DNA from: Gammaproteobacteria bacterium
Lineage (GTDB): Bacteria; Pseudomonadota; Gammaproteobacteria; Ga0077554; Ga007554
DNA length: 64,000 nucleotides
Reading direction: 5' to 3'
Assembly: GCA_021731145.1 (NCBI GenBank)
Contig: JAKFXX010000002.1
Location: forward strand, 62,001-126,000
The first letter of the stretch is position 1. Each line of letters opens with the position of its first letter. This document shows positions 3,492 through 57,232 of this stretch, in pieces. The position numbers were made by a program, and so were the translations under genes. A model generated the notes under the pieces. The model saw only the letters and a program-made list of their open reading frames with translations. It was not told the origin of the DNA and made no database searches.

Positions 3492-4427
3492 CTACGGGCG
3501 AGATTGCCCGGATTCTTCCCGGTCGGCCTCATCATGCTGTTCATGCCGAGGACCGTGAGGATGGGAGTGGATGACGTCGCCGTGGCGATGGATGTGCTCG
3601 TGGAGGATGAAGCGCTCTTTGATGTAATTGAATAGCAGCACCAGGCAAAACAGGCTGGCGCCGAACAGCACGATGGTTGCGCCGGAGGCGGCGTTGAAGA
3701 TATAGCTCAGATACATGCCCACCACACCCATGACGGCGCCGATGAGGGTGGAATAGATGATCATCCGGCTGAAGCTGTCGGTGAGCATGCGCGCGGTGAT
3801 GGCCGGAATGACCAGGGTGGCGGCAATCATGGTGACGCCGACAATGTTCATCGAGGCGATGATCGCCAGGGTGAGGATGAAGGAAAACATCAACTGCACA
3901 ACTCCGGTCTTGATGCCGAAGACGCGCGCCGCTTCGTTGTCGAAGGTGGAGAACAGTAACGGCTTGTACATCAAAAATACCGTTACCATGGTAAAGGCGG
4001 TGACCAGCGCGATGACAGTCAGATCCTCGCTGGTGACGCCCAGGATATTACCGAACAACGCCGCCTCGAAGCTCTGGGTAAAGGTGCGCACACGGCTGAT
4101 GATGGCTATACCCAGCGCAAAGAAGGCGGTGGTGACTATGCCGATGGCGGCGTCGGATTTGATCTTGCCACCCTTCGCTACCTGATTGATCAAAACAGCA
4201 GCCAGCAAGCCCATTGCGCCCGCGCCGACATAGAAATTCAGTCCAAGGGTAAAACCTACCACGGCGCCGCCGAAGGCAGCGTGGGATAGCCCGTGACCGA
4301 TATAACTCATGCCGCGCAGCACGATATACACGCCGATCAGCCCGCACAGCGCCCCTACCATCAGGGAGGCAAGCAGGCTGTTCCTGAAAAACTCGTAGGC
4401 GAGCGGCTCAAGCAAAAAATCCATCAT
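3492..4427 (-). CDS. znuB: Zinc/manganese-type ABC transporter permease (ZnuB family) with His-rich tail
   Basis: This is the integral membrane subunit of a cluster A-I metal ABC importer. The 311 residues contain about eight hydrophobic segments and the conserved sequence GLSHAAFGGAVVG typical of ZnuB/MntB permeases. After the last membrane segment comes an unusual tail rich in histidine (HEHIHRHGDVIHSHPHGPRHEQH), likely cytoplasmic and able to bind metal. The gene follows znuC and znuA. A palindromic element has inserted between znuC and this start; its end supplies the sequence upstream of the ATG, including a GAGG 8-11 bases away. Substrate could be zinc, manganese or, given the NikR context, nickel. 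Confidence 0.88.
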   Translation of the reverse strand: MMDFLLEPLAYEFFRNSLLASLMVGALCGLIGVYIVLRGMSYIGHGLSHAAFGGAVVGFTLGLNFYVGAGAMGLLAAVLINQVAKGGKIKSDAAIGIVTTAFFALGIAIISRVRTFTQSFEAALFGNILGVTSEDLTVIALVTAFTMVTVFLMYKPLLFSTFDNEAARVFGIKTGVVQLMFSFILTLAIIASMNIVGVTMIAATLVIPAITARMLTDSFSRMIIYSTLIGAVMGVVGMYLSYIFNAASGATIVLFGASLFCLVLLFNYIKERFILHEHIHRHGDVIHSHPHGPRHEQHDEADREESGQSRP

Positions 4428-4663
4428 CCTAGAAACCTCAGTTGGACGGGGTGGAGTGTGCGGTTATGGGGGTGCAGGGCAAGGCGCAACGACGCGGAAT
4501 GGTTATTCCATTCCAAGGAGTTGCAACGCAGCCATGCGCCGCCATAACCGTGCAATCCGCCCCGTAGCGCGCCCGCCCAATCGGTGCAATGGTAAAACAA
4601 CACACAAGCCATCTTAGTCATTGCCCTATGCGCTCCAATGAGCGGTCAACTGAGGTTTCTAGG
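4428..4663. repeat. Palindromic MITE-like element inserted at the znuC/znuB junction
   Basis: The 236-bp element has inverted ends (CCTAGAAACCTCAGTTG at 4428 and its complement ending at 4663). Inside are long imperfect inverted arms around a perfect hairpin, GGAATGG-TTATT-CCATTCC. One arm carries about 85 extra bases that include a small dyad (CCGCTCATTGGAGCG). The flanking bases are ATCAT on both sides, consistent with a 5-bp target duplication. Removing the element and one ATCAT restores an ATGA overlap between the znuC stop and the znuB start. No transposase gene is present. Confidence 0.8.
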
Positions 4664-4667
4664 ATCA

Positions 4668-5456
4668 TCATTTTTCTTTCTCTGCGAGATGCAATGGCGT
4701 GCCACTGGCAATCAGGAAATGATCGCCATGCTCCACAATCACGATATCACCGCCATAGGTTTTGGTCAGTATGCCGTTGGTGAAGATGTCGCGTGGCTTG
4801 CCCTGTGCAACCAGCCCTTTGTTGAAGCAGATCACCCAGGGCAGATGCGATGCGACGGCGTTCAGATCGTGGGTGGTGAGAAGGATGGTGATCCCCTCTT
4901 GATTCAGATCGCCCAACAGATGCAGCACGTCGTGCTGGGTTTTTATATCGACCCCGGCGGTAGGCTCATCGAGCACCAGCAGCTTGGGATTGTTGATCAG
5001 GGCGCGTGCCAGAAAGGCGCGCTGACGCTGTCCGCCTGAGATGTTGACGATGTGGTGATGCAGACAGTCGTGGATGCCGAGCCGATCCGCCAGATCGTGA
5101 ACCTTGTTGCGCTCCTGCCGCGTGGACCAGGGCCAGATCCCCTTGTTGGTGTACAACCCCATGAGGATCACCTGCTCGACGGTGACGGGGAAGCTCCAGT
5201 CCACGCTTTCGAGCTGGGGAACGTAACCGATGCTGCCCGGCGGGAGCTTGTCCACGGGCAGTCCCAGCAGCCGCACATCACCCGAAAACACCGGCTGAGT
5301 ACCGAGAATGGTTTTTAACAGCGTGGTCTTGCCTGATCCGGTCGGCCCCACAATGCCGGCAAATTGGCCAGCGGGGATCTCCAGGGAGAGGCGGCTAAAA
5401 ATGACTTTGCGCTCATAACCTACCGATACGTCACGCAATCTGACAGCAGCGTCCAT
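4668..5456 (-). CDS. znuC: Zinc/manganese-type ABC transporter ATPase (ZnuC family)
   Basis: This is the ATP-hydrolysing subunit of the metal importer. Visible motifs are Walker A (GPTGSGKTT), Q-loop (YVPQ), signature (ISGGQRQRAFLARAL), Walker B (LLVLDEPTAGVD) and H-loop (LLTTHDL). At 262 residues it has the usual length. The start lies 9 bases after the znuA stop, with AAAGG upstream. The last codons (EKEK, then TGA) abut the inserted palindromic element; before insertion the stop codon overlapped the znuB start. Confidence 0.92.
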   Translation of the reverse strand: MDAAVRLRDVSVGYERKVIFSRLSLEIPAGQFAGIVGPTGSGKTTLLKTILGTQPVFSGDVRLLGLPVDKLPPGSIGYVPQLESVDWSFPVTVEQVILMGLYTNKGIWPWSTRQERNKVHDLADRLGIHDCLHHHIVNISGGQRQRAFLARALINNPKLLVLDEPTAGVDIKTQHDVLHLLGDLNQEGITILLTTHDLNAVASHLPWVICFNKGLVAQGKPRDIFTNGILTKTYGGDIVIVEHGDHFLIASGTPLHLAEKEK

Positions 5457-5465
5457 TTGTACCTT

Positions 5466-6449
5466 TTACATTTTCGGTTCGATATTCGCCGCGTCCACAT
5501 TGGCGGCGCAACCACGGCTGCCACCCAGCGCCTCGGTCATGATCTCGACATTGTTGGCCATCATACCGATGAAGGAATGCCTCGGGCCAGTGGGCGCGCC
5601 CGGCAGTTCATCATCCGACAATTGGTCGATAAACTTGACACCGGTCTCGCGTGCAATCTGCACCAGGGTCTTGCTGGGGAAGACCTCGGAGCCAAAGATT
5701 GCGGGCACCTTTTCCTGTTTGAGCTGTTTGATGATTCTGATGACTTCGCGCGGGCTGGGCTCGGAAAAGTCCGAAGGCTGGATGGCGGCGATAACCTTCA
5801 TGCCATAACGCGGTGCGAAATAGGCAAAGGAATCATGATACGTCACCAGCTTGCGGTTTGTTTCGGGGATGGTTTTGACGCACGCAAAAATGGCGGCATC
5901 CAGTTTTTTCAGCTTGGCCACATAGGCTGCGGTATTGGCAATATAACCCTCCTTGCGTACCGGGTCGATGGCGGCCAGATTATCCCGGACAGTCTCGGCA
6001 TAGCGTATCGCCAGCGCGATGTTCGGCCACAGATGTGGATTGGGATGACCGGCTTCGCGGGGGAAGCTGAAGTCATATTGCCAGTCTTCCTTGCGCAATG
6101 CGCTCTCACCAAGACGTACTATCGGCGTACGCGCTTTTTTAACCTTTTCCGCCAGTTTTACCGTGGGCAACTCAAGGTCAAGCCCGTTCACGACGATAAT
6201 ATCGGCAGCGGTCAACACTTTTGCATCCGCAGGCACAGGCTCGAAGGTGTGGGAATCGGTGCCGTCGGGAACGATTCCGGTGACGTTGACATACCCCGCG
6301 CCGACATTCCGGACAATATTGGTAATGGGGGCGACAGTGGTGACGATGTTGATTTTTTTTACTGCATCAACGGCATAGAGCTGCCCGGACATAAACAATG
6401 TCATCAGGGATGTCAAAAATAGAGCAGAAAACCGGAGCGGTTTATTCAT
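5466..6449 (-). CDS. znuA: Metal ABC transporter substrate-binding protein (ZnuA family)
   Basis: This is a periplasmic binding protein of cluster A-I. A signal peptide is clear at the start (SALFLTSLMTLFMSGQLYAVDA). Likely metal ligands are the histidines in GTDSHTFEP, NPHLWPN and VTYHDSFAY, plus an acidic residue near SDDELPG. The His/Asp-rich loop seen in many dedicated zinc ZnuA proteins is absent, so zinc is not assured; manganese or nickel are alternatives. A good ribosome site (AAGGGGAT) precedes the ATG. It is the first gene of znuA-znuC-znuB, divergent from the tonB unit over a 231-bp region. Confidence 0.88.
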   Translation of the reverse strand: MNKPLRFSALFLTSLMTLFMSGQLYAVDAVKKINIVTTVAPITNIVRNVGAGYVNVTGIVPDGTDSHTFEPVPADAKVLTAADIIVVNGLDLELPTVKLAEKVKKARTPIVRLGESALRKEDWQYDFSFPREAGHPNPHLWPNIALAIRYAETVRDNLAAIDPVRKEGYIANTAAYVAKLKKLDAAIFACVKTIPETNRKLVTYHDSFAYFAPRYGMKVIAAIQPSDFSEPSPREVIRIIKQLKQEKVPAIFGSEVFPSKTLVQIARETGVKFIDQLSDDELPGAPTGPRHSFIGMMANNVEIMTEALGGSRGCAANVDAANIEPKM

Positions 6450-6542
6450 GGGTATCCCCTTAATCCTTTACAACATATCGGCATCATCAGCGAAACTTGT
6501 ACCCTGGCTGGATTGACATCAATGAGACGGTCGTGATGTACT

Positions 6543-6569
6543 GTATGACGAATTATTTTTTAATCATAC
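6543..6569. promoter_or_regulatory. Candidate NikR operator in the znuA/tonB divergent promoter
   Basis: The sequence GTATGA-N15-TCATAC matches both half-sites of the E. coli NikR operator exactly; the inverted repeat extends to TGTATGA/TCATACA. The E. coli spacer is 16, so this site is one base shorter. A weaker second copy, GTATGA-N15-TCACAT, lies about 70 bases downstream, near 6623-6649. A nikR gene closes the plus-strand unit, so autoregulation and nickel control of tonB-exbBD-receptor are likely. The divergent znuACB unit could share the operator. Confidence 0.7.
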
Positions 6570-6680
6570 ATCTTTCAGGTAGCGACACGGCATGGCTTTC
6601 AAACTATTTTTATAGTCCGTATGAAAATCTGGCAACATTTCACATTATAGATAAAAGCAGCCTTAATACATAGATCAAAC

Positions 6681-7403
6681 ATGGGACTAGCGGCGCAAAA
6701 TGGGCACATCATTCTTCCATCACCAGAGCGGTCGCGCCTGGTGATGATGGCCGTGCTCGCGACCCTGATCGTACATGTGTTCGTGGTTTCGGTTTTGTGG
6801 CGCTTGTGGAGTGATCGACCCATGCTGCAACCCTCTCCTCCACTCGAAGTAAACCTTATCGTGCCGCCGCCTAAGTCTACACCGGTGACGCCGCCCCCAC
6901 CGGCCCCTCGCCCTCCACCTGCGGCCCAACAGCCGGTCAAGCAAACTCCTTCCTTACCTGCTCAGCAACCGGTCGCGCCGATGACAAAAGCGGCGCCCCC
7001 CTTGCCCGTGCCGGTAGAGCAGCATGTGGCGGAGCCGGTTAAACAGCCCGAGGCCGCCCCGCCGCCTGTGGTCCCGGAGGAGCCGAAAGCCGCGCCCGTC
7101 AAAACGGCACCGGCAGCAGAGATCGAGCCGCCGGGGTTTGGCGCCGCATATTTGAACAACCCGCCGCCCAAATACCCTCCTGCCGCACGGAAGTTTGGCC
7201 TGCAGGGCACGGTACTCCTGAGGGTGTTGGTCAGCCCGGCGGGGCTGCCGGAGAAAATAAGCGTTCTGACCAGTTCCGGCTCACCTGTACTGGATGATGC
7301 CGCCATAAATACGGTCAAGCAATGGACGTTCGTGCCCGCCCGTCAGGGAGACCACACAGTTGCCGGTTCGGTTAATGTGCCGATCCGTTTTGTTTTGAAT
7401 TGA
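6681..7403 (+). CDS. tonB: TonB energy transducer
   Basis: TonB couples the proton-motive force harvested by ExbB-ExbD to outer-membrane receptors. The 240-residue sequence has an N-terminal membrane anchor (about residues 20-40), a long proline-rich periplasmic linker (PPPPAPRPPPAAQQPV and similar) and a C-terminal TonB domain starting near PPPKYPPAARKFGLQG and ending VPIRFVLN. It is first in a unit with exbB, exbD, the receptor and nikR, so it is probably dedicated to that receptor. The ribosome site is weak. The NikR-like operator lies about 110-140 bases upstream. Confidence 0.93.
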   Translation: MGLAAQNGHIILPSPERSRLVMMAVLATLIVHVFVVSVLWRLWSDRPMLQPSPPLEVNLIVPPPKSTPVTPPPPAPRPPPAAQQPVKQTPSLPAQQPVAPMTKAAPPLPVPVEQHVAEPVKQPEAAPPPVVPEEPKAAPVKTAPAAEIEPPGFGAAYLNNPPPKYPPAARKFGLQGTVLLRVLVSPAGLPEKISVLTSSGSPVLDDAAINTVKQWTFVPARQGDHTVAGSVNVPIRFVLN

Positions 7404-7445
7404 ATCCACTTTCCAGCGCATACCCAAGCACGACCAGGAGAATTA

Positions 7446-8174
7446 ATGAACAGTACGCCTCAAACGACAACGTCCTTCATGGATCACCTGGGAAGTGCCG
7501 ACCCTATGGTCTCAGGCGTGCTCTACCTGCTGCTGATTCTTTCGCTGCTGACATGGTTTTTGATCATCTACAAAGGGTCGGAGCTATGGCGTGCCCGGCG
7601 TGCGAACGACGAGTATGCCAAACAGTTCTGGGAGAGTGCCGATGCCGTGCAATTTCTGAAAAAATCAGCCGCGTCACATTCCGCGTGCCCCTTGGCGCGA
7701 CTGACAAAAACCGGCGTTGAGGCCGTGGAACATTATCAATCTCACTACACCGACCCGAGCGATGCCGCCAAACACATCAACAACATCACTGACACACTCA
7801 CCCGCGCCTTGCGTCAGGCCATCCAGGACCAGATAACCCACTTTGAAGCGGGCTTGGGGATATTGGCGACCATCGGCAATACCGCGCCGTTTGTCGGCCT
7901 GTTCGGCACCGTGATAGGCATCATGTCGGCACTGGAAGGCATCGCCGGCAGCGGTTCGGCGGATCTGAACGTGGTTGCCGGCCCGATTGGCGAAGCGCTG
8001 GTCGCCACCGCGGCGGGCATTGCCTGCGCTGTCCCGGCTGTGGTGGCGTACAATAGTTTTTTGCGGCGCATGAAGGTGTTCAGCAATACACTGGATAGTT
8101 TTGCCTATGACTTGTTGTCTCACCTTGCCTCTGAACGTGCCGTTCGCGCTCTTGCGACAGAGGAGAAAAAATAA
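7446..8174 (+). CDS. exbB: ExbB/TolQ-family proton channel subunit
   Basis: This inner-membrane protein of 242 residues forms the proton channel with ExbD. It has three hydrophobic segments (near residues 20-45, 135-160 and 175-200) and the family motif GLGILATIGNTAPFVGLFGTV before the second. The ATG is preceded by AGGAG at good spacing. It ends in ATAATGG, where its TAA stop overlaps the exbD start region, which implies translational coupling. Confidence 0.94.
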   Translation: MNSTPQTTTSFMDHLGSADPMVSGVLYLLLILSLLTWFLIIYKGSELWRARRANDEYAKQFWESADAVQFLKKSAASHSACPLARLTKTGVEAVEHYQSHYTDPSDAAKHINNITDTLTRALRQAIQDQITHFEAGLGILATIGNTAPFVGLFGTVIGIMSALEGIAGSGSADLNVVAGPIGEALVATAAGIACAVPAVVAYNSFLRRMKVFSNTLDSFAYDLLSHLASERAVRALATEEKK

Positions 8175-8602
8175 TGGCATTCGGTCAACTTGATCGCGGC
8201 GGTGCGCCGCAACCCATGCACGAAATCAACGTCACCCCGCTGGTCGATGTGATGTTGGTACTTCTGGTGGTGTTCATCATCGCCGCTCCGCTGCTGACTC
8301 ATAAGGTCAAACTCAACCTGCCCAAGGCCACGGCCCAGCCATCATCGGTCATTCAGAAACCGCTCGTCCTCAGCCTGACGAAAGATGCGCAACTCTATCT
8401 TGATGGAAAACCCATCGGCCACGCGGCATTACAAACAATGTTGCAAGGTCTGGTCGCGGCCAATACTCCACCCACCGTGGAATTGCGCGCCGACGGTGAT
8501 CTGGCCTATCAGCATGTAGTGCGCCTTATGGCATTAGTACAAAGCACTGGGGTAACCAAGCTTTCGTTCATTACACAACCTGAAGCGGTAGGCGCACCAT
8601 AA
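8174..8602 (+). CDS. exbD: ExbD/TolR-family biopolymer transport protein
   Basis: ExbD is anchored by one membrane helix (about residues 22-42). It carries the conserved aspartate of the proton path in INVTPLVDVMLVLLVVFII. The periplasmic domain (LYLDGKPIGHAALQTML...VELRADGDLAYQHVVRLMAL) is typical, and 142 residues is the normal size. The first base overlaps the last base of exbB. Confidence 0.94.
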   Translation: MAFGQLDRGGAPQPMHEINVTPLVDVMLVLLVVFIIAAPLLTHKVKLNLPKATAQPSSVIQKPLVLSLTKDAQLYLDGKPIGHAALQTMLQGLVAANTPPTVELRADGDLAYQHVVRLMALVQSTGVTKLSFITQPEAVGAP

Positions 8603-8640
8603 AAAACACCTTCAACACCCAACAACGGGAGCGTTACACA

Positions 8641-10737
8641 ATGAAAAAAAACTCGCGGGTTCAACGGGCGTTACGCAGCGCCAGGGGCGCAACATTGACG
8701 TTGGCGGGAATCACATGCCCATTGCTAGCCATGGCGGCCGGCGTGCCGACGCTCGATGTGGTGGAAGTGAAATCCACAGCAGACAACCTGATCGGCGCCG
8801 CCGACTCGGCAAATCAGGGCACCGTGACCAAAAAGCAACTGGATGCACGCACCGTCTATCGCCCCGGAGAATTACTGGAAACCGTGCCGGGACTGATCGT
8901 CTCCCAACACAGTGGGGAAGGCAAGGCCAACCAGTTCTATGCGCGCGGCGTTAATCTTGACCACGGCACGGATTTGCGTACCAGCGTCGACGGCATGCTG
9001 GTCAACCAGCGCAGCCACGGGCACGGGCAGGGCTGGACCGATTTGAATTTTCTGATACCGGAGCTGGCGAGCGGCCTGCAATACAAGAAAGGGCCTTATT
9101 ATGCCGAGGAAGGCGATTTTTCGTCGGTGGGCAGCGTCAATATCGGCTATCTTGATGTCCTGCCGCGAGGCATTTCCAACATCGGCATCGGCCAGCAGGG
9201 TTACCGGCGTTTGCTGCTCGCCGATTCTCCCAGACTGGGCGCAGGCAACCTGCTCTATGCAGCCGAGATAAGCGCCAAAGACGGACCGTGGGTCAACCCC
9301 GACGACTACCGCAAATTCAATACCGTGCTACGCTACAGTCAGGGCGATGACCAGAACCGTTTCAATGTCACCGCCATGGCCTACCGGGGACTATGGAACG
9401 CCACAGATCAGATCCCGCTGCGCGCCGTGAACAGCGGCTTAATACCGCGACTAAGCACGGTTGACCCCAGTAGTGGCGGCGATGTCTCCCGCTACAGCCT
9501 ATCAACCGCATGGCAGCGCATGAGCGGCAATGGCATCACCCGGGCCAATGCCTATGTCATCCAGCATGACCTCAACCTGTTTTCGAACTTCACTTACTTT
9601 ATGAATGATCCCGTCCGCGGCGACCAGTTCTACCAGCCTGACAAACGCACCATGTCCGCCGCGAACATCAGCCAGGCATGGTTGAGCCAATGGGGTAGCC
9701 GTGATGTCGAAAATACCGTCGGGCTGCAACTGCAGAACGATAATATCTCCAATGGCCTGTTGAGCACCATCAAGCGGCAGGTATGGGACACCACCCGACG
9801 CGACCGTATCGTCGAGAGCAGCGCCGCTGTCTACGTTCAGAATAGTACACGCTGGACGGAGAAATTCCGCACTGTGGCGGGGCTGCGCAGCGACTTCTAC
9901 CGGTTTAACGTTCGCAGCGATAACGCCGCCAATTCAGGCGCCGAGAACGCCAGCATCACCAACCCCAAACTCAGTATGATCTTCGGCCCCTGGGCCAAGA
10001 CCGAGTATTACATCAATCTCGGCGGCGGCTTCCGCAGCAATGATGCGCGCGGCACGACCCTCACCGTCGATCCGAAGACCGGCAGCACGGTTGATGCCGG
10101 CGGCAATCCAATTCAAAGGGTCACCCCCCTGGCACGCACCAAGGGTGTCGATCTGGGGCTGCGCACCGCCATCATACCGGGCTTGCAGAGCACCTTCACC
10201 GTGTATCAACTGGACTCCGCCTCCGAATTGGTATTTCTGGGCGATGCCGGAACCACTGAGGCGAGCCGTGCCAGCCGCCGCACTGGCTTTGAGTTCGCCA
10301 ACTACTATGCGCCCACACCGTGGTTAACCATTGATGCGGATATCGCCTACGCCAGGGCACGCTTCAAGGGTAATGCCCCGGAGGGAGACCGCATTCCCGG
10401 CGCAGTGGAAGGCGTCGCTTCACTGGCAGCCTTGGTGGATAACGTCGGCCCCTGCTTCGGCAGCATGGCCCTGCGCTACTTTGGCCCACGCCCCCTGGTT
10501 GAAGACAACAGCGTGCGCTCAAACAACACCACCACGCTGAACGGCCAGATCGGCTACAAATTCCACAAAAACCTGCGTGTGGCGCTGCAAGTCTTTAATT
10601 TGTTGAACAGCAAGTCCAACGCCATCGACTACTATTACGAATCACAACTGCAAGGCGAAACGGCACCAAAGGCCGACAAGCACTTCCACCCCATCGAGTC
10701 ACGCTCGTTCAGGGTAAGTTTTATCAGCAATTTTTAG
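8641..10737 (+). CDS. TonB-dependent outer-membrane receptor (nickel candidate)
   Basis: This 698-residue porin-like receptor has a signal peptide ending near PLLAMAAG, a TonB box (LDVVEV), a plug domain (RPGELLETVPGLIVSQHSGEG, YARGVNLDHGTD, GLQYKKGPYYAEEGDF) and a 22-strand barrel ending in aromatic F (SFRVSFISNF). A histidine-containing plug loop, RSHGHGQGWTD, could contact a metal or metal chelate. Its position between exbD and nikR behind a NikR-like operator makes a nickel chelate the leading substrate. That is inference; cobalt chelates or other metallophores are possible. Confidence 0.88.
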   Translation: MKKNSRVQRALRSARGATLTLAGITCPLLAMAAGVPTLDVVEVKSTADNLIGAADSANQGTVTKKQLDARTVYRPGELLETVPGLIVSQHSGEGKANQFYARGVNLDHGTDLRTSVDGMLVNQRSHGHGQGWTDLNFLIPELASGLQYKKGPYYAEEGDFSSVGSVNIGYLDVLPRGISNIGIGQQGYRRLLLADSPRLGAGNLLYAAEISAKDGPWVNPDDYRKFNTVLRYSQGDDQNRFNVTAMAYRGLWNATDQIPLRAVNSGLIPRLSTVDPSSGGDVSRYSLSTAWQRMSGNGITRANAYVIQHDLNLFSNFTYFMNDPVRGDQFYQPDKRTMSAANISQAWLSQWGSRDVENTVGLQLQNDNISNGLLSTIKRQVWDTTRRDRIVESSAAVYVQNSTRWTEKFRTVAGLRSDFYRFNVRSDNAANSGAENASITNPKLSMIFGPWAKTEYYINLGGGFRSNDARGTTLTVDPKTGSTVDAGGNPIQRVTPLARTKGVDLGLRTAIIPGLQSTFTVYQLDSASELVFLGDAGTTEASRASRRTGFEFANYYAPTPWLTIDADIAYARARFKGNAPEGDRIPGAVEGVASLAALVDNVGPCFGSMALRYFGPRPLVEDNSVRSNNTTTLNGQIGYKFHKNLRVALQVFNLLNSKSNAIDYYYESQLQGETAPKADKHFHPIESRSFRVSFISNF

Positions 10738-10775
10738 GCTATATTTTTCGTCATGTCCGTTAAAGAGGGATTTCA

Positions 10776-11237
10776 ATGGAGCGCCTCACCATATCACTGG
10801 AAACCACACTCGCTAAACAATTTGACGAGTTTATCCGCGCGCGCGGATATTCAAACCGATCGGAGGCGATGCGCGACCTGATCCGGGAGCGTCTCGAAAC
10901 CGAACGCCTCCAGAAATGGGAAGAAGGCTATTGCATCGCCACGCTGAGCTATATCTACAATCATCACGAGAGTGAACTCGCAAGCCGCATCACTTCGGCA
11001 CAGCATGAGCATCATGATCTGACATTGTCCAGCATGCACGTACACCTGGACCACGACAACTGCCTGGAGATTGCCATACTGCGCGGCCCCACCCAGGAGG
11101 TGCGCAACTTTGCCAACACCGTGATCGCCGCGCGTGGCGTGCGGCATGGTAAGCTGCACATGGTGCCGGTGGAGATGAGGGAAGAAAAGCATCCCGCCTC
11201 GTCTCACGCGCATACCCATAGCTACCCCATCACCTGA
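10776..11237 (+). CDS. nikR: Nickel-responsive transcriptional regulator NikR
   Basis: NikR has an N-terminal ribbon-helix-helix DNA-binding domain (MERLTISLETTLAKQFDEFI...SRSEAMRDLIR-type sequence, residues 1-50) and a C-terminal ACT-like nickel-binding domain. The expected nickel ligands are visible: His in QHEHHD, two His in MHVHLDHD and Cys in NCLEIAILRG. The 153 residues include a His-rich tail (HAHTHS). The start follows GAGGG. It lies 38 bases after the receptor gene, so it is probably in the same transcript and represses its own unit when nickel is plentiful. Confidence 0.94.
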   Translation: MERLTISLETTLAKQFDEFIRARGYSNRSEAMRDLIRERLETERLQKWEEGYCIATLSYIYNHHESELASRITSAQHEHHDLTLSSMHVHLDHDNCLEIAILRGPTQEVRNFANTVIAARGVRHGKLHMVPVEMREEKHPASSHAHTHSYPIT

Positions 11238-11247
11238 CTGGCGACTT

Positions 11248-11877
11248 ATGCGATCCAAAGAAGCAAGCACCCGAATCATTTACGTGCGTCACGGCCAGAC
11301 TGATTTTCCGCTGGACCGCATTTACAACGACGACATAGAAGACCCTATATTGAATGCCGCAGGCGTTGAGCAAGCCCGGTACGCCACCGAATTATTGCGC
11401 AACACGAAAGTCGACCTGATCTGCGCCAGCCCCAGCAACCGCACCTGGGCGACGGCGCAAGCCATTGCGCAGGCTACCGCTGCACCACTGGAGGCAAATC
11501 CCGCGCTAAAAGAACGGCGCTTCGGGATCTGGGAGGGATTGTTCTTCGATGAAATCGAGCGCAACTATCCTGACCTGTATCAACAGTGGAAACAAAATCC
11601 CAGCGCCTTCAAACCGGAGGGTGGTGAATCGGTTTATGACCTGCTCGACAGGGTTAAGGCGGTGATTGATGGCCTTATTGAGCAGTACAAAGGAAAAACC
11701 ATCGTTGTGGTTTCTCACGTTGGCCCTATTCGTGTGTGCTTGACGGCAGCACTCCAGATGCCGGTGGAATCATACCGGCAACTGACGATTGATTACGCCT
11801 CGCTTTCCCGAATAGATTACGGCAGGAGCCAGAACAACTTTGTCTATATGAACATCTCAAGCAAGGGGCTTGGTTAG
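11248..11877 (+). CDS. Histidine phosphatase (phosphoglycerate mutase-like / CobC-like)
   Basis: The catalytic RHG motif (YVRHGQTDF), a downstream acid residue in LKERRFGIWEGL and the second histidine in VVSHVGPIRVCL identify the histidine phosphatase superfamily. At 209 residues it resembles alpha-ribazole phosphatase (CobC) and sugar-phosphate phosphatases; the substrate cannot be decided. It begins 10 bases after nikR and may belong to the same transcript. Its 3' end overlaps a possible TTG start of the next gene but not the start preferred here. Confidence 0.85.
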   Translation: MRSKEASTRIIYVRHGQTDFPLDRIYNDDIEDPILNAAGVEQARYATELLRNTKVDLICASPSNRTWATAQAIAQATAAPLEANPALKERRFGIWEGLFFDEIERNYPDLYQQWKQNPSAFKPEGGESVYDLLDRVKAVIDGLIEQYKGKTIVVVSHVGPIRVCLTAALQMPVESYRQLTIDYASLSRIDYGRSQNNFVYMNISSKGLG

Positions 11878-17304: not shown

Positions 17305-18768
17305 TTATTTTTTCTTGGCGGCTTTCTTGGCTACGCCCTTTTTCTTGGGAGCAGCTTTTGCCGGTGCGGCCTTTTTAGGAGCAGCTTTCTTTGGGGCTAC
17401 TTTCTTTGCTGCTGCTTTTTTTGCCACGCCTTTTTTAGGAGCGACCTTTTTAGGAGCGGCTTTTTTTACTATGGCCTTTTTCTTTGGAGTCACCTTTTTG
17501 GCCGGAGCCTTCTTCACGGGGACTTTCTTGGCTGGCGCCTTCTTGACCGGGGCTTTCTTCGCGGGAGCTTTCTTTATTGGCGCCTTCTTGGTCGGCGCTT
17601 TTTTAACAGATGCCTTCTTGGCTGGCGCTTTTTTCACGGCGGCCTTCTTCGCCACAGCCTTCTTGACGCCGGCAACCGCTTTTTTCACGGCCTTTACTAC
17701 TTTCTTCTCGGCGGCCTTCACCGTCTTCGCTACCACTTTCGCCTCTTTCTTGGCGCCCGCAATCGCTTTTTTGGTGGCCGTGACCACTTTCTTTTCAGCC
17801 TTTACCACAGCCTTCTTGGCAATCGCCACATCTTTCTGTGCAGTGGCAACGGCCTTCGTTGCGGCCTTGGTTGCCGCCTTGGCGACTTTCTTTTCAACGT
17901 CTTCGACAGTTTTCACGATGGCTTTTACCTCTTTCTTGATGGTGGCAACAGTTTTTTTCGCGGCGGGTGCCACTTTTTGCTCGGCTTTTTTCTCGACCGG
18001 CTTGGCGGCTTTCTCAACCGCTTTCACAACAGGCGCTGCCTTTGCCTCAACAACCGGCTTTTTCACGGCGGCGGGTTTGATGGGCTTGGCGGCTGGAGCA
18101 GGCTTTACCACAGGGGCTGGCGCAGGTTCACTGATGGCCTTTTGGATCGCCGCAAAAATATCGGAAATCTCACCCACGCCCTGCACAGTACGCAGCTTGC
18201 CCTGGTTGCGGTAATACGCTGCCACGGGCGCGGTCTGCGCCTCGTAGACGCGCAGCCGGTTGCCAATGGTTTCTTCGTTGTCATCGGCACGATGACGCAG
18301 GTTGCCACCGCATTTGTCGCAACGGTCATCGAGCCTGGAGGGTGAAGTGTAAATGTTGTATGTCTGACCGCATGACTCACAGGTGCGTCGACCCGTCAGA
18401 CGCTGCAAGAGTATTTCAAAATCGAGATCGATCAGCAGTGCAATCTCCAGGGATTGCTGGAGTTTGCCCAGCATTGCGTCCAACGCCTCTGCCTGGGGGA
18501 TGTTGCGCGGAAAACCATCCAGGATAAATCCTTCGCGCGCATCCGGCTGGGATAGCCGTTCCGCGATCATGCCCAAGACGATGTCGTCGGATACCAGTTG
18601 TCCGGATTCCATCACGGCCTTGGCCTGAAGGCCCAGCGGCGTGCCCGCCGCCACTGCAGCGCGCAGCAAATCGCCCGTGGAGATTTGCGGGATATGAAAC
18701 TTCTCGACGAGCAGCTTGGCTTGCGTGCCTTTCCCCGAGCCAGGCGCACCTAACAGTACAATTCTCAT
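17305..18768 (-). CDS. adk: Adenylate kinase with a long histone-H1-like C-terminal tail
   Basis: Residues 1 to about 218 are a complete adenylate kinase: P-loop GAPGSGKGTQ, STGDLLRAAV, DGFPRNIPQA and LTGRRTCESCG. The lid has a four-cysteine zinc site (C-x2-C-x16-C-x2-C). It interconverts AMP, ADP and ATP. From about 219 to 487 the same frame continues as a low-complexity tail of Lys, Ala, Pro and Val with repeats such as VKKAPAKKAPVKKAP and PKKAAPKKAAPAKAA. This is like the AlgP/PhaF and histone-H1 type DNA-binding tails. No stop or shift lies at the junction. Typical adenylate kinases end near residue 215-220, so this is a fusion of a metabolic enzyme to a nucleic-acid-binding tail. Confidence 0.93.
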   Translation of the reverse strand: MRIVLLGAPGSGKGTQAKLLVEKFHIPQISTGDLLRAAVAAGTPLGLQAKAVMESGQLVSDDIVLGMIAERLSQPDAREGFILDGFPRNIPQAEALDAMLGKLQQSLEIALLIDLDFEILLQRLTGRRTCESCGQTYNIYTSPSRLDDRCDKCGGNLRHRADDNEETIGNRLRVYEAQTAPVAAYYRNQGKLRTVQGVGEISDIFAAIQKAISEPAPAPVVKPAPAAKPIKPAAVKKPVVEAKAAPVVKAVEKAAKPVEKKAEQKVAPAAKKTVATIKKEVKAIVKTVEDVEKKVAKAATKAATKAVATAQKDVAIAKKAVVKAEKKVVTATKKAIAGAKKEAKVVAKTVKAAEKKVVKAVKKAVAGVKKAVAKKAAVKKAPAKKASVKKAPTKKAPIKKAPAKKAPVKKAPAKKVPVKKAPAKKVTPKKKAIVKKAAPKKVAPKKGVAKKAAAKKVAPKKAAPKKAAPAKAAPKKKGVAKKAAKKK

Positions 18769-43414: not shown

Positions 43415-46400
43415 TCAGGGGCTGGATTCAGTGGTGCTGTTCCCTGTTTCACCCTTCAGTTTTCTCTCATGCCACCACAGGTAGACAACGGGCATGACGA
43501 TCAGCGATAGAAACGGTGCTGTCACCATGCCGCCGACCAGGGGGGCGGCGATGCGCTTCATCACGTCGGCGCCGATCTCATCGCCAAACATCACTGGCAG
43601 CAGCCCGGCGATGATCACGGCAACCGTCATCGTCTTCGGGCGCAGCCGCAGCACCGCACCCTGCACAATCGCCTCTCTGAGCATCGCTGCATTGGTCAGC
43701 CGTCCGGCGGTGCGGAACGATTCGATCATCTTGTCGAGATAGAGCAGCATCACCACGCCGAACTCGGTGGCGACGCCCGCCAGGGCGATGAAGCCAACCG
43801 CCACGGCGACGGAGATGGGATAACCGAGCAGATAGACCAGCCAGATGCCGCCAACCAGTGAAAATGGCAGACACAGCAATACCAGCAACACTTTTTCGAA
43901 GCGCCGGAAATGGAGATAGAGCAGGGCGCAGACCAGCAGTAACGTAATCGGGATGACCCAGGAGAGACGTTCACGGGCATGTTCAAGATTGGTGTACTGA
44001 CCTGACCAGGCGACAGCATAACCGGGTTTCGTGGCAACCGATTTTTCGATCAGGCGCTTGGCCTCTTCGACATAACCACCAAGGTCGCGGTTCTCGATGT
44101 TGATGTAGACATAACCGACCAGCCGGCCATTTTCGCTCTTGATCTCCGTCGGGCCATCGTGAAGGGTGAGGCGCGCCAAGTTGCCCAGCGGGATGGTCTC
44201 GCCGTTGGGCATCTTCACCCGGCTTTGCGCTAGCGCCGCGACCGAGTCACGGAACGAACGTTGATAGCGCAGGTTGATGGAGTAGCGCTCGCGCCCCGCA
44301 ATCATGGTGGAGATCTCCTTGCCGCCGCTGGCAACCTCGATCAGCGCTTCAACATCGGCAACGGTAACGCCGTAGCGCGCGGCCCGCTCCCGGTCGACCT
44401 CGATGTCGATGTAGTGTCCACCCTCGATGCGCTCGGCAAAGACGCTGCGCGTCCCCGCGATCTTCTGCAATACCGTTTCAATCTCTTGCGCCAGGGCCGA
44501 GATCCCCTCTGCGTCGGGGCCGCTGATCTTGATCCCCAGCGGCGTGCGGATGCCGGTGGATAGCATGTCGATGCGGGTGCGGATGGGGTAGCCCCAGGAG
44601 TTGGTGAGGCCGGGCAGCTTCACCTCGCGGTCGAGTTTGGCGATGAACTCTTCGACCGTCTCGCCCTCGGGCCATTCACTCTGTGGCTTGAGGCGGATCA
44701 CCGTCTCAAACATCGAGAGTGGCGCGGGGTCGAGCGCCGTGTCGGCCCGGCCCGCCTTGCCGTAGACATGTTCGACCTCAGGCATCTGGCGAATCAGGCG
44801 GTCGGTGATCTGCAACAGGTTGGCCGCTTCATCGATGGAGACGCCGGGCAGGGTCGTCGGCATGTAGAGCAGGTCACCTTCATACAACGGCGGCATGAAC
44901 TCGCTGCCGAGTTTGCTGGCAGGCCAGAGTGCGCTCAACAACAGCAGCAGGACAAAAGCGCCGAGCGCCAGTTTGTGGCGGAAGCAGAAATTCAGCAGTG
45001 GCAGATAGAGCGCCTGCAACATCCGGTTGAGTGGATTGCGCCGCTCCGGTCTGATCCTGCCTCTGACCAAATAGCCCATCAGCACCGGCGTCAGCGTAAT
45101 GGAGAGCAGTGCGGCCGCTGCCATGGCGTAGGTCTTGGTATAGGCGAGTGGGGTGAAGAGCTTGCCCTCCTGACCGATCAAGGCAAAGACCGGCAGGAAT
45201 GAGACGGTGATGACGAGCAGCGAGAAGAAGAGTGCCGGGCCGACCTCGCGGGCGCTCTCGCGGGCCGCTTGCCAATAGTCTGTTTGATCACCCATGCGTT
45301 CGAGATGTTTGTGCATGTTTTCGATCATGACAATGGCGGCGTCGATCATCGCGCCGATGGCGATGGCGATGCCGCCCAGTGACATGATGTTGGCCGTCAC
45401 CCCTTGCAGGTTCATCACCACAAAGGCGGCGAGAATGCCGACCACCAGCGTGGCGATGGCCACCAGCGCCGAGCGGAAGTGCAGCAGGAAGATCAGGCAG
45501 ACCAGCGCCACCACCAGCGACTCTTCGATCAGTTTGGTTTGCAGGGTGTTGACGGCGTCACGGATCAGGCCGGAGCGGTCATAGGTGACGACCAGTTCGA
45601 CCCCCTCAGGGAGTCCGCTCTTGATTTCAGCGAGCCGCGCTTTCACACCTTCGATGGTATCGAGGGCGTTGGCGCCATAGCGCATCACCACAATGCCGCC
45701 CGCTGCTTCGCCTTCGCCGTCGAGGTCGGTCACGCCGCGTCTCGATTCGGGGCCTGTCGTGATATGGGCGACATCACGCAGCAACACCGGCACGCCATTT
45801 TTATCGAGGGCGACGGGGATCGTGTCGAAATCGGCCAGCGATTTGAGATAGCCACGGGTGCGCACCATGAACTCGGCGCGCCCCATCTCGATGGCGGCGC
45901 CACCGCTGCTGCGGTTGCTGTTACGCACCGCCTCGGCGACCTGCTCCAGGGTGATGCCGTAAGCGGCCAGGCGGTTGGGATTGATCTCGATCTGGAACTG
46001 CCGCACCATGCCGCCGACGCTGGCCACCTCCGCCACCCCCGGCAGGCTTTGCAGTTCGTACTTGAGGTAGTAGTCCTGCACGGCGCGCAGCTGGTCCGGA
46101 TCGTAACGGTTACCACGATCCACCAGCGCGTATTGAAACACCCAGCCAACGCCGGAGGCGTCAGGCCCCACTGCCGGAGTCACACCTTGCGGCAGACGCG
46201 CAGCGATCTGGTTGAGGTATTCGAGCACGCGCGAGCGCGCCCAGTAGGGATCGGTGCCATCCTTAAAAATAATGTAAACGTATGACTCCCCAAACATGGA
46301 GAAACCCCGCACGGCGGTCGATTCGGGCACTGAAAGAAAGGCGGAGGTGAGTGGGTAGGTGACCTGATCCTCGACAATATCGGGTGGCTGCCCCGCATAG

Positions 46401-46573
46401 CTGGTCTTGACGATCACCTGGGTGTCGGAGAGGTCGGGGATGGCGTCAATCGTCATCACCTTTAACGAATAGCCGCCCCACAGCGCCAGCCCCAGTGAAA
46501 CGAACAGGACCAGCAGGCGATTGCGCAGCGACCAGTCGATGACCCGGTTGATCAGCAGGCCATCACTCGCCAT
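43415..46573 (-). CDS. cusA: Copper/silver RND efflux pump, CusA type
   Basis: This 1052-residue inner-membrane transporter belongs to the heavy-metal RND family. The proton relay is in GAMIDAAIVMIENMHKHLERM, and SYVYIIFKDGTDPYWARSRVLEYL near the N-terminus is typical of HME pumps. It pumps Cu(I)/Ag(I) from the periplasm through an outer-membrane channel. It overlaps cusB by 11 bases. No cusC-type outer-membrane gene is here, so a channel must be supplied from elsewhere. Confidence 0.93.
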   Translation of the reverse strand: MASDGLLINRVIDWSLRNRLLVLFVSLGLALWGGYSLKVMTIDAIPDLSDTQVIVKTSYAGQPPDIVEDQVTYPLTSAFLSVPESTAVRGFSMFGESYVYIIFKDGTDPYWARSRVLEYLNQIAARLPQGVTPAVGPDASGVGWVFQYALVDRGNRYDPDQLRAVQDYYLKYELQSLPGVAEVASVGGMVRQFQIEINPNRLAAYGITLEQVAEAVRNSNRSSGGAAIEMGRAEFMVRTRGYLKSLADFDTIPVALDKNGVPVLLRDVAHITTGPESRRGVTDLDGEGEAAGGIVVMRYGANALDTIEGVKARLAEIKSGLPEGVELVVTYDRSGLIRDAVNTLQTKLIEESLVVALVCLIFLLHFRSALVAIATLVVGILAAFVVMNLQGVTANIMSLGGIAIAIGAMIDAAIVMIENMHKHLERMGDQTDYWQAARESAREVGPALFFSLLVITVSFLPVFALIGQEGKLFTPLAYTKTYAMAAAALLSITLTPVLMGYLVRGRIRPERRNPLNRMLQALYLPLLNFCFRHKLALGAFVLLLLLSALWPASKLGSEFMPPLYEGDLLYMPTTLPGVSIDEAANLLQITDRLIRQMPEVEHVYGKAGRADTALDPAPLSMFETVIRLKPQSEWPEGETVEEFIAKLDREVKLPGLTNSWGYPIRTRIDMLSTGIRTPLGIKISGPDAEGISALAQEIETVLQKIAGTRSVFAERIEGGHYIDIEVDRERAARYGVTVADVEALIEVASGGKEISTMIAGRERYSINLRYQRSFRDSVAALAQSRVKMPNGETIPLGNLARLTLHDGPTEIKSENGRLVGYVYINIENRDLGGYVEEAKRLIEKSVATKPGYAVAWSGQYTNLEHARERLSWVIPITLLLVCALLYLHFRRFEKVLLVLLCLPFSLVGGIWLVYLLGYPISVAVAVGFIALAGVATEFGVVMLLYLDKMIESFRTAGRLTNAAMLREAIVQGAVLRLRPKTMTVAVIIAGLLPVMFGDEIGADVMKRIAAPLVGGMVTAPFLSLIVMPVVYLWWHERKLKGETGNSTTESSP

Positions 46574-47879
46574 TGTGCATCCCGGCGCGCATACGTTCTG
46601 CCGCGGCGCTCATGGAGGCCGCCGAGTCGAGCAGGAACTGGCCGTTGACCGCGACCTCGGCACCTTCAAGCAGGCCATCGACGATTTCGATATCGTCACC
46701 ATTTTCGATTCCGGTTTCGATGTAGGCGGGGAGGAAGTGGCCAGCGCCGCGTGACAGCATCACTCGGTCTCCATCACCGCCGCGCAGCACTGCTGAGCGT
46801 GGCAACAGCAGCGCCTCACGGGGTTGGGCGTGGATGGTCACATCAACAAAAGTGCCGGGGCGCAGATGGAGTTTGGCGTTGTTGATCGTCGCCCTGGCGC
46901 TGACCTTGTTGCTGTCAGCGATGGGGTTGATGAAATCGAGCATGGAGTTGATGTGCTGGCCGTTGGCGGCGGTGATGGTGACGGTATCGCCGTTTTTAAT
47001 CTGGCCGAGCTGGTCGGGATAGAGGGTGATATCAACCCAGACCTTGGCGACATTGGCGAGTGTAAAGAGGGTGGCGGCGGGCTCGATGAAGTTGCCCTCG
47101 CGCACATTGATCTGCGCCACCACGCCGGACTCTGCGGCGACTATCTTCACCACCTCAAAGGGCTGTTTGTTGTCTTCGATCTGACGCACGGTTTCGATGT
47201 CGATATCTTCTTGCAGGAATCGGGTCCGCTCCCTGGAGAGTTCCATCAGCAGCTCCATCACATACTCATTCTCCTGCAACCTGACGTCGCCGATGGTTTG
47301 CAGGATCTGGTTGCGCCGCGCCATGAATCTCAAATACTCCTTCTGGCGCATGATCAGGTCGGGTGAATAGATCTCGTAGATCACCTGCCCCTTTTGGATG
47401 CGCTGCCCGACAGAGTGGATGTAGAGCTTCTTGATCCAGCCATCATATTTAGTGTGGACGTTATGGAGCGCGCGTTGGTCGATCGTGACATTGCCGTAGG
47501 CGCGGATCTCCTGGCTGATCGCCGATTTTTTCAGGCTTGTCACCCTGACACCAAGTTTTTGCAGGGTGGCGCTGTCGACATGCACGCCAGGGGCGTGCTC
47601 GTGGAGTGTGCTGTTTATCGACTCTTCCACCAGCCCCATGCCGCAGATCGGACAGCTTCCCGGATGGTCCTGCATGATCTCCGGATGCATCGGGCAGATG
47701 TAAATCTTCTCTGGCGCGGTTTTAGTGATGCCTGGCAAGGCGGGTGCATGGATGGCGGGTGGTGTGATTTCAGTGCCGCGCCATGAGATGGAGATGTTCT
47801 GATTTAGAAAATATGAAGTGAGGATGACGATGCACAATAGCGCGATGCCTGCCGCTGTTCTCTTCGTCATATGTGCCAT
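46563..47879 (-). CDS. cusB: Copper/silver efflux membrane-fusion protein, CusB type
   Basis: CusB bridges CusA to an outer-membrane channel and binds copper. After an N-terminal membrane segment comes a heavy-metal-binding domain, YICPMHPEIMQDHPGSCPICGMGLVE, then a lipoyl-like/barrel-sandwich domain (VTIDQRALHNVHTKYDGWIKKLY) with a helical hairpin and beta-barrel. It is 438 residues long. It lies 55 bases after nirK on the same strand and may share its transcript. Confidence 0.92.
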   Translation of the reverse strand: MAHMTKRTAAGIALLCIVILTSYFLNQNISISWRGTEITPPAIHAPALPGITKTAPEKIYICPMHPEIMQDHPGSCPICGMGLVEESINSTLHEHAPGVHVDSATLQKLGVRVTSLKKSAISQEIRAYGNVTIDQRALHNVHTKYDGWIKKLYIHSVGQRIQKGQVIYEIYSPDLIMRQKEYLRFMARRNQILQTIGDVRLQENEYVMELLMELSRERTRFLQEDIDIETVRQIEDNKQPFEVVKIVAAESGVVAQINVREGNFIEPAATLFTLANVAKVWVDITLYPDQLGQIKNGDTVTITAANGQHINSMLDFINPIADSNKVSARATINNAKLHLRPGTFVDVTIHAQPREALLLPRSAVLRGGDGDRVMLSRGAGHFLPAYIETGIENGDDIEIVDGLLEGAEVAVNGQFLLDSAASMSAAAERMRAGMHNGE

Positions 47880-55414: not shown

Positions 55415-57232
55415 TTATTTCAGCCCTGATCTGGCCTTGATAAACTCCACAACCTGGATCAGTGGAATATTCTGACTCTCTGCATCACGCCGCCCCTTGT
55501 ATTCAATCATACCTTCGTCCAGCTTGCTCTCGCCGAGTACCAAACGGTGCGGGATGCCGATCAGCTCCATATCCGTGAACATCACGCCCGCGCGCTCCTT
55601 GCGGTCGTCGTATAACACCTCGATGCCTGCCGCCTGCAATTCACTGTAAAGGGCGTCAGCGGCATCGCGGATGCGCTGTGATTTGTGCATATTCATCGGC
55701 AACAGCGCAACCTGAAAAGGTGCGATAGCGTCGGGCCAGATGATGCCTTTGTCATCGTTGTTCTGCTCAATGGCGGAGGCGACAATGCGCGACACGCCGA
55801 TGCCGTAGCAGCCCATCGTCATCACGATGCTGCGTCCTTGCTCATCCAGACAGGTGGCGTTCAATGCCTTGCTGTACTTGTCGCCAAGCTGAAAGATGTG
55901 ACCCACCTCAATGCCACGGCGGATCGCCAGCCGTCCCTCGCACCGGAAAACTGCTCCTGCGTTTCCGGCACTTCCGCCATCCATGGCGGTCGCACGCGGG
56001 CATTGCTCGCCCGCACGCACTGTACGCAGATCGGCCACCGACGGCCGGAAAACCGCTCCTGCGTTTCCGGCACTACTGCCATCCATGGCGGTCGGCAGCG
56101 GAACGTCCTCACCCCAGTTGAGATTGATCCAGTGGTAATCCAGCTCGTTCGCGCCACTGGAAAAATTGCGCGCCTGCGCGGCCTGCTGATCCACCATCAC
56201 AGTCAAACCGGAGGGCAGTCCCAGCGGGCCAACAAAACCCGCCGGCGCGCCGGTGGCGGCGAATACTTCAGCAGCTTCCGCCATACGCAGATTGGTCGCA
56301 CCGAGAGCACGCGCCGCTTTTATCGTGTTGAGTTCGTCGCCGCCGCCGATAAAAAACACCACCGGCTTGTCATCGGCGATCATCACCACGCTCTTGACGA
56401 TGCGCTCAAAGGAGATACCAAGCATCTGCGCCTGTTCGTCGACAGTGCGGATACCCGGCGTAGAGACTTTCTCCTTCTCGCGCGGCGCTTCATGTGCGGG
56501 CGCGGGCAGGTGGCTGGTGGCCATTTCCACATTCGCGGCGTAGTTACAGCTATCGCAGAATGCGATGGCGTCCTCGCCCGAATCCGCCAGCACATGGAAT
56601 TCATGCGAATAACGCCCGCCGATGCTGCCGGTGTCTGCCTCCACGGGGCGGAATTCCAACCCAAGGCGGGTGAAGATACGCGTATAGGTTTGATGCATCA
56701 GATCATAGGTCTCTTGCAGCGAGGCCTGATCGAGATGGAAGGAATAGGCATCCTTCATGATGAACTCGCGGGCGCGCATCACGCCGAAACGCGGGCGGGT
56801 CTCGTCGCGGAACTTGGTCTGAATCTGATAAAAGTTGGAGGGCAACTGCTTGTAGCTGCGGATCTCGCGGCGGATCAAATCGGTGATGACCTCTTCGTGC
56901 GTCGGGCCAAAACAAAATTCACGATCGTGGCGGTCCTTGAGGCGCAGCAGCTCCGGTCCATACTGCTCCCAGCGCCCAGACTCCTGCCACAGCTCGGCGG
57001 GCTGCACGGCGGGCATCAACACCTCCAGCGCCCCCGCGCGATCCATCTCCTCACGCACAATGGCCTCCACCTTGCGCAGCACGCGCAGCCCCAAGGGCAA
57101 CCAGGTGTACAAACCGGCAGCCAGCTTGCGGATCATCCCCGCGCGCAGCATCAATTGGTGGCTGATGACTTCGGCATCGGACGGGGTTTCTTTGACGGTA
57201 GATAATAAAAATCGTGATACGCGCATGGTCAA
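55415..57232 (-). CDS. proS: Prolyl-tRNA synthetase with two in-frame repeat insertions
   Basis: ProS charges tRNA-Pro. The class II motifs are present ([65 protein letters not shown]), with the editing (INS) domain between, in 605 residues. Near residues 381-397 and 413-429 it carries two copies of a 17-residue insert ([16 protein letters not shown]) that do not belong to the family. Removing them leaves [20 protein letters not shown], the expected sequence. The inserts lie before the catalytic domain's third part, at the INS-domain side, and probably form tolerated loops. Confidence 0.93.
55943..55993 (-). repeat. In-frame 51-bp palindromic element in proS, copy 2
   Basis: Read on the minus strand the insert contains CCGCCATGGATGGCGG and the dyad CCGGAAA...TTTTCCGG. 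It is nearly identical over about 49 bases to copy 1 at 56039-56089 (about three or four mismatches). It encodes [17 protein letters not shown] and follows CPR in the synthetase. Confidence 0.85.
56039..56089 (-). repeat. In-frame 51-bp palindromic element in proS, copy 1
   Basis: This insert encodes [17 protein letters not shown] between PLPT and VADLR. The two copies lie 45 bases apart, separated by codons for [15 protein letters not shown], which are native. The element is a multiple of three and keeps the frame open. Confidence 0.85.

Follow-up and report, generated by a model that had tools for sequence, protein, structure and literature searches.

The window, i.e. the whole stretch of 64,000 nucleotides analyzed here, contains at 3492-11877 the genes of a ZnuABC-type ABC transporter, lying back to back with genes for a TonB-dependent receptor and for the repressor NikR. 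This arrangement raises the question of which metal the transporter carries. An earlier note, made from the sequence alone, had suggested that it could import nickel, a reading supported by linkage to nikR, a conserved NikR box, linkage to ureE and co-occurrence with urease. Judged from this context, the transporter is most likely a nickel importer, belonging to a family without known nickel carriage, because it is wired to NikR and, in many ammonia-oxidizing relatives, to urease.

Organization of the locus

Nine ORFs were confirmed at the expected coordinates within 3492-11877, and the gene content given in the earlier note (tonB, exbB, exbD, receptor, nikR and phosphatase, with divergent ZnuABC-like genes) was recovered, all Pfam/NCBIfam families being the expected ones. 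The genes form two divergent units, a leftward SBP-ATPase-permease unit and a rightward tonB-exbB-exbD-receptor-nikR-phosphatase unit (6681-11877). The features are:

3492-4427, minus strand: ABC-3 (ZnuB/TroC-type) permease with a His-rich C-terminal tail (PF00950, 236 bits)
4428-4670, no strand: palindromic MITE-like insert between the ATPase and permease genes (inverted arms, fold z -10.5)
4668-5456, minus strand: ABC ATPase, ZnuC/AztA/MntA-like (Pfam/NCBIfam families)
5466-6449, minus strand: periplasmic SBP of cluster A-I fold, predicted nickel-binding (PF01297, 232 bits)
6543-6569, no strand: predicted NikR operator GTATGA-N15-TCATAC, exact (box scans, conservation)
6619-6645, no strand: second, degenerate NikR box, 2 mismatches, N15 (box scan)
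6681-7403, plus strand: TonB (PF03544, TonB_C)
7446-8174, plus strand: ExbB (PF01618)
8174-8602, plus strand: ExbD (PF02472)
8641-10737, plus strand: TonB-dependent outer-membrane receptor (PF07715 plug and PF00593 barrel)
10776-11237, plus strand: NikR, nickel-responsive ribbon-helix-helix repressor (NF002815, 203 bits, cut-off 83)
11248-11877, plus strand: histidine phosphatase, CobC-like (His_Phos_1; below family cut-off)

The inverted arms of the MITE-like insert were located at 4416-4444 and 4647-4675. The insert is also found in the sister genome Ga0074134 and is absent from locus L027, where the ATPase and permease genes nearly touch; a partial copy (89%) was detected at another locus of the genome (L121:527-656).

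NikR and its predicted operator

The NikR protein contains the PF01402 and PF08753 domains and scores well above the curated NF002815 cut-off, while its score against TIGR02793 (161.5 bits) is slightly under the cut-off of 175.5. The nickel ligands H76, H87, H89 and C95 (E. coli numbering) are conserved in the alignment to E. coli NikR (1q5v). Given the NF002815 match and these conserved His/Cys ligands, it should respond to nickel and recognize an operator of the GTATGA type.

Such an operator, already pointed out in the earlier note between the two units, is present in exact form as GTATGACGAATTATTTTTTAATCATAC at 6543-6569. Shuffling gives an expectation of 0.02 exact boxes per window, and this is the sole exact site with a spacer of 14-16 in the 2.9-Mb genome. 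The enterobacterial consensus is GTATGAT-N13/14-ATCATAC (PMC545781), which equals N15/16 in GTATGA-type notation, and the N15 spacer is therefore ordinary. The second box lies 76 bp from the first; taken alone, it is within chance for 2-3 mismatches, and for this reason it counts solely through its recurrence in relatives, where box pairs 75-80 bp apart were found at loci L025, L029, L030, L032 and L037 (75-77 bp in the last four), the second box of the sister locus L025 being at the place corresponding to 6619-6645. A promoter scan of the intergenic region revealed nothing above chance.

Conservation of the box was evaluated by scanning the 450 bp upstream of the SBP gene of related loci, allowing at most one mismatch. 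Of 46 loci linked to nikR or to the receptor, 37 have such a box and nine are without a near-perfect one; 3 of 5 other proteobacterial loci also have it, whereas none was found in this stretch at the 12 ureE-linked loci without nikR or at the 15 loci of Chloroflexota/Actinomycetota homologues. The rate in shuffled controls was 29 of 1560. Among 50 sites, 47 have a spacer of 15. From the comparison of the first class with the last two, the box accompanies nikR and not the transporter family as such.

Conservation of the paired units in relatives

A search for related loci produced 80 of them, and nine proteins were mapped on these and on loci taken from whole genomes. The divergent arrangement, with the SBP, ATPase and permease genes on one side and the receptor and nikR on the other, recurs in dozens of genomes from Nitrosomonas, Nitrosospira and gammaproteobacteria, MAGs included; the earlier note had asked whether relatives keep the two units together, and about 40 loci do. 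The tonB-exbB-exbD genes were found only at the gammaproteobacterial ones. When 85 SBP loci were classified by their neighbors (loci being counted rather than genomes, with a few loci in twice), nikR, receptor and ureE were all found nearby in 24, nikR and receptor in 16, nikR only in 5, the receptor only in 3, ureE without nikR in 12, and nikR with ureE in 2. The remaining 23 have none of the three and are mostly from Chloroflexota/Actinomycetota or on short contigs.

In the SBP tree a branch with SH-aLRT 99 splits the proteobacterial rows from the Chloroflexota/Actinomycetota rows. Given this split, and the FUR-family gene located directly upstream in the Chloroflexota homologue L098, the proteobacterial line may have changed its metal. 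L090, from Rhodospirillales, stands apart: here nikR and the transporter are immediate divergent neighbors, separated by a box with one mismatch and by no receptor gene, and the urease match in that genome is marginal (26 bits).

Four histidines of the receptor plug (H90, H108, H126 and H128) are invariant in 42 sequences. The structural model of the receptor (pLDDT 67) matches many TonB-dependent receptors, PqqU and Fiu first; sequence profiles matched PqqU and BtuB only, the likeness of the plug to BtuB being weak. In G005 the receptor (79% identical) stands alone, with its own exact NikR box, beside urtC/D/E-like genes.

A second NikR-linked unit, in which a tonB-like gene adjoins NikR boxes, was observed in sister genomes. 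At L123:29-5746 (box at 6190) and L125:2178-6928 (boxes at 7623, 7841 and 7916) the tonB-like gene is accompanied by DUF3526 permease(s) and an ABC-2 ATPase, and in L123 a TonB receptor lies between them; at L127:4764-5627 (boxes at 6142 and 6262) it lies beside another receptor and peptide-ABC-like genes.

The ABC transporter

The transporter combines a ZnuA-type SBP, an ABC-3 permease and an ABC ATPase, which is the make-up of a cluster A-I importer. None of the zinc/manganese equivalog cut-offs was reached, all ZnuA/ZnuB/ZnuC and AztA/AztB/AztC scores being below them (ZnuA 73 vs 268, AztC 181 vs 350). The AlphaFold model of the SBP (pLDDT 87.5) matches YfeA, MntC, AztC and TroA, and by its sequence, modeled fold and putative ligands the SBP is a cluster A-I protein. 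The putative ligands H67, H139, H205 and D279/D280 make a His, His, His, Asp set, the same as that of AztC/TroA-type proteins, and nickel selectivity therefore does not follow from the sequence. Since all 84 homologues compared, among them those of Chloroflexota, keep these positions, the first shell does not separate nickel from zinc.

Two features had been offered in the earlier note as hints of nickel transport. The lack of a His-rich loop in the SBP is real and weak as nickel evidence; many manganese, iron and zinc SBPs have no such loop. The His-rich tail of the permease is likewise real. Most of the proteobacterial relatives sampled share it, with 6-18 His among the last 55 residues, the Chloroflexota/Actinomycetota permeases being without it (0-3 His). 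It is nevertheless weak evidence, as the tail is lost in some nickel-linked relatives: at loci L050 and L074 nikR and ureE are kept and the tail is gone.

Links to ureE and urease

UreE is the nickel chaperone of urease. The 12 loci with ureE and, in the stretch examined, without nikR all belong to Nitrosomonadaceae. In 11 of them ureE is upstream of the SBP gene on the same strand, adjoining it in ten and lying about 0.5 kb further off in L056; in the twelfth (L068) it is downstream, together with ureABC and ureG. The UreE of locus L042 scored 157.6 bits against a cut-off of 144, and at L065 nikR and ureE are both present. The ureE linkage is a second link to nickel, which replaces the nikR linkage in the nikR-less subclade.

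Co-occurrence was evaluated in 125 Nitrosomonadaceae genomes. The SBP was matched in 73 of them, strongly in 72, and a urease is present in 75. Strong SBP and urease are both present in 68 genomes and both absent from 46, while 4 have the SBP only and 7, all of 1.0-2.0 Mb in size, the urease only; the association gives a Fisher p of about 6e-22, a value which ignores shared ancestry. The four urease-less genomes which keep a strong SBP count against the nickel reading. SBP and urease are less than 20 kb apart in 54 of the 68 genomes having both (median 8.0 kb), and a urease is present in 39 of the 45 genomes searched that hold loci of the set L025-L088.

Nickel enzymes and metal systems of the host genome

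The host genome encodes a urease, with urt-like genes, and a sulfhydrogenase-type [NiFe] hydrogenase, accompanied by genes resembling hypA and hypF. Of the other nickel importers, a NikA equivalog, NicO and CbiM were searched for, and none of these three was detected. The two SBP_bac_5 proteins of the genome are both far under the NikA cut-offs, so that the absence of NikABCDE claimed in the earlier note holds genome-wide as far as tested; the SBP of the window itself is of family PF01297 and not NikA-type.

Two FUR-family genes are present. One reads as Fur by sequence, and the other is Irr-like, below the Irr cut-off; no Zur was recognized among them. Control of the transporter by Zur through a Zur box, named in the earlier note as one finding that would refute its reading, is therefore unlikely. 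Contig 20 (L140:2370-5338) carries a further SBP of the ZnuA family together with a permease; upstream of them an outer-membrane-like protein is encoded, and the 8 kb read there show no adjoining ATPase gene.

Proposed function and alternatives

We consider it most likely that the region is a NikR-controlled locus for nickel uptake across two membranes, whose inner-membrane importer is of the ZnuABC type. A wider reading also appears likely: the proteobacterial cluster A-I clade would be nickel-specific, would bring nickel across the inner membrane in many ureolytic ammonia oxidizers and would form a full two-membrane pathway with a NikR-controlled TonB receptor. At the locus itself, nickel-loaded NikR would bind the box at 6543-6569, perhaps with help from the weaker one at 6619-6645, so as to repress both divergent units, which would be expressed when nickel is scarce. 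The TonB-ExbB-ExbD motor would then drive the receptor, and nickel, probably as a chelate, would cross the outer membrane, be captured in the periplasm by the ZnuA-type protein and be imported by the ZnuB/ZnuC-type permease and ATPase, for use by urease and [NiFe] hydrogenase.

The importer might instead carry zinc (or manganese), the two units just sharing an intergenic region in which the box serves the tonB side only. The family and the first-shell ligands are indeed those of zinc/manganese SBPs, and the distant homologue L098 has its FUR-family neighbor. This alternative is improbable, however, in view of the recurrence of the nikR linkage in many genomes, of the position of the transporter behind ureE in nikR-less relatives and its tracking of urease, of L090, where nikR faces the transporter across a box with no receptor between, and of the second ZnuA-family SBP and permease available to the host. 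A zinc importer placed here as a chance neighbor was thus rejected as the main reading.

Cluster A-I proteins can bind several metals, and the putative ligand set is the same as in relatives of other specificities. The transporter could accordingly take up divalent metals with dual or broad specificity, its repression by nickel via NikR being mainly a guard against nickel overload. We regard this too as quite unlikely, since the linkage to ureE and urease suggests nickel supply rather than protection.

The CobC-like phosphatase stays with nikR in the family of the host, and also in G028 and G077. That cobalt or a cobalt complex is carried, as hinted by this resemblance to alpha-ribazole phosphatase (141 bits, cut-off 163), suggestive of cobamide metabolism, and by the weak similarity of the receptor plug to BtuB, is very improbable, and a cobalt/cobamide system was rejected as the main reading, because NikR, UreE and urease linkage all indicate nickel and no phosphatase of this kind was detected at those Nitrosomonas/Nitrosospira loci which keep transporter, receptor and nikR.

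Relation to known systems

The nickel importer proposed here shares its fold, putative ligand positions and three components with ZnuABC, TroABC, MntABC, YfeABC and AztABC. The importers of cluster A-I carry zinc, manganese or iron according to PMC7731109 and PMC9820375; unlike those, the present one sits with nikR, ureE, urease and a NikR box. NikABCDE, NikMNQO and NiCoT have the same predicted job, with NikR control for several of them (PMC2667541, PMC545781), but belong to unrelated transporter families.

TonB-dependent receptors reported to act on nickel include FrpB4, FecA3, NikH and Daro_3944 (PMC11247825, PMC3856676). The likeness to these NikR-regulated or nickel-transporting receptors is one of context, a TonB receptor together with nikR and a NikR box; the inner-membrane importer paired with the present receptor belongs to another family. 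In Helicobacter mustelae, NikH and FecDE/CeuE, a receptor and an ABC importer, supply nickel to urease (PMC3856676), but FecDE/CeuE is a siderophore-type ABC importer, while the one described here is ZnuABC-type.

In a search confined to open-access papers, neither a cluster A-I importer for nickel nor this locus was found described. Predicted NikR regulons are reportedly the subject of Schauer, Rodionov and de Reuse 2008 and of Rodionov 2006.

If the clade carries nickel, many annotations of nitrifier genes as zinc, manganese or iron transporters would be wrong. The system would be a testable candidate for the nickel supply of urea-fueled ammonia oxidation, a step of the nitrogen cycle. The metal would also have changed with the putative first-shell ligands unchanged, which would make these proteins a natural set for the study of metal selectivity.

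Other features of the window

Genes resembling a copper/cation RND efflux pump are located at 43415-47879, followed, up to 51083, by two multicopper-oxidase or nitrite-reductase-like genes. The adenylate kinase (17305-18768) has a long, Lys/Ala/Pro-rich C-terminal extension, which is histone-H1-like. Within the prolyl-tRNA synthetase gene (55415-57232), a 70-nt repeat occurs in two similar copies, at 55943-56012 and 56045-56114, which make up an in-frame stretch.
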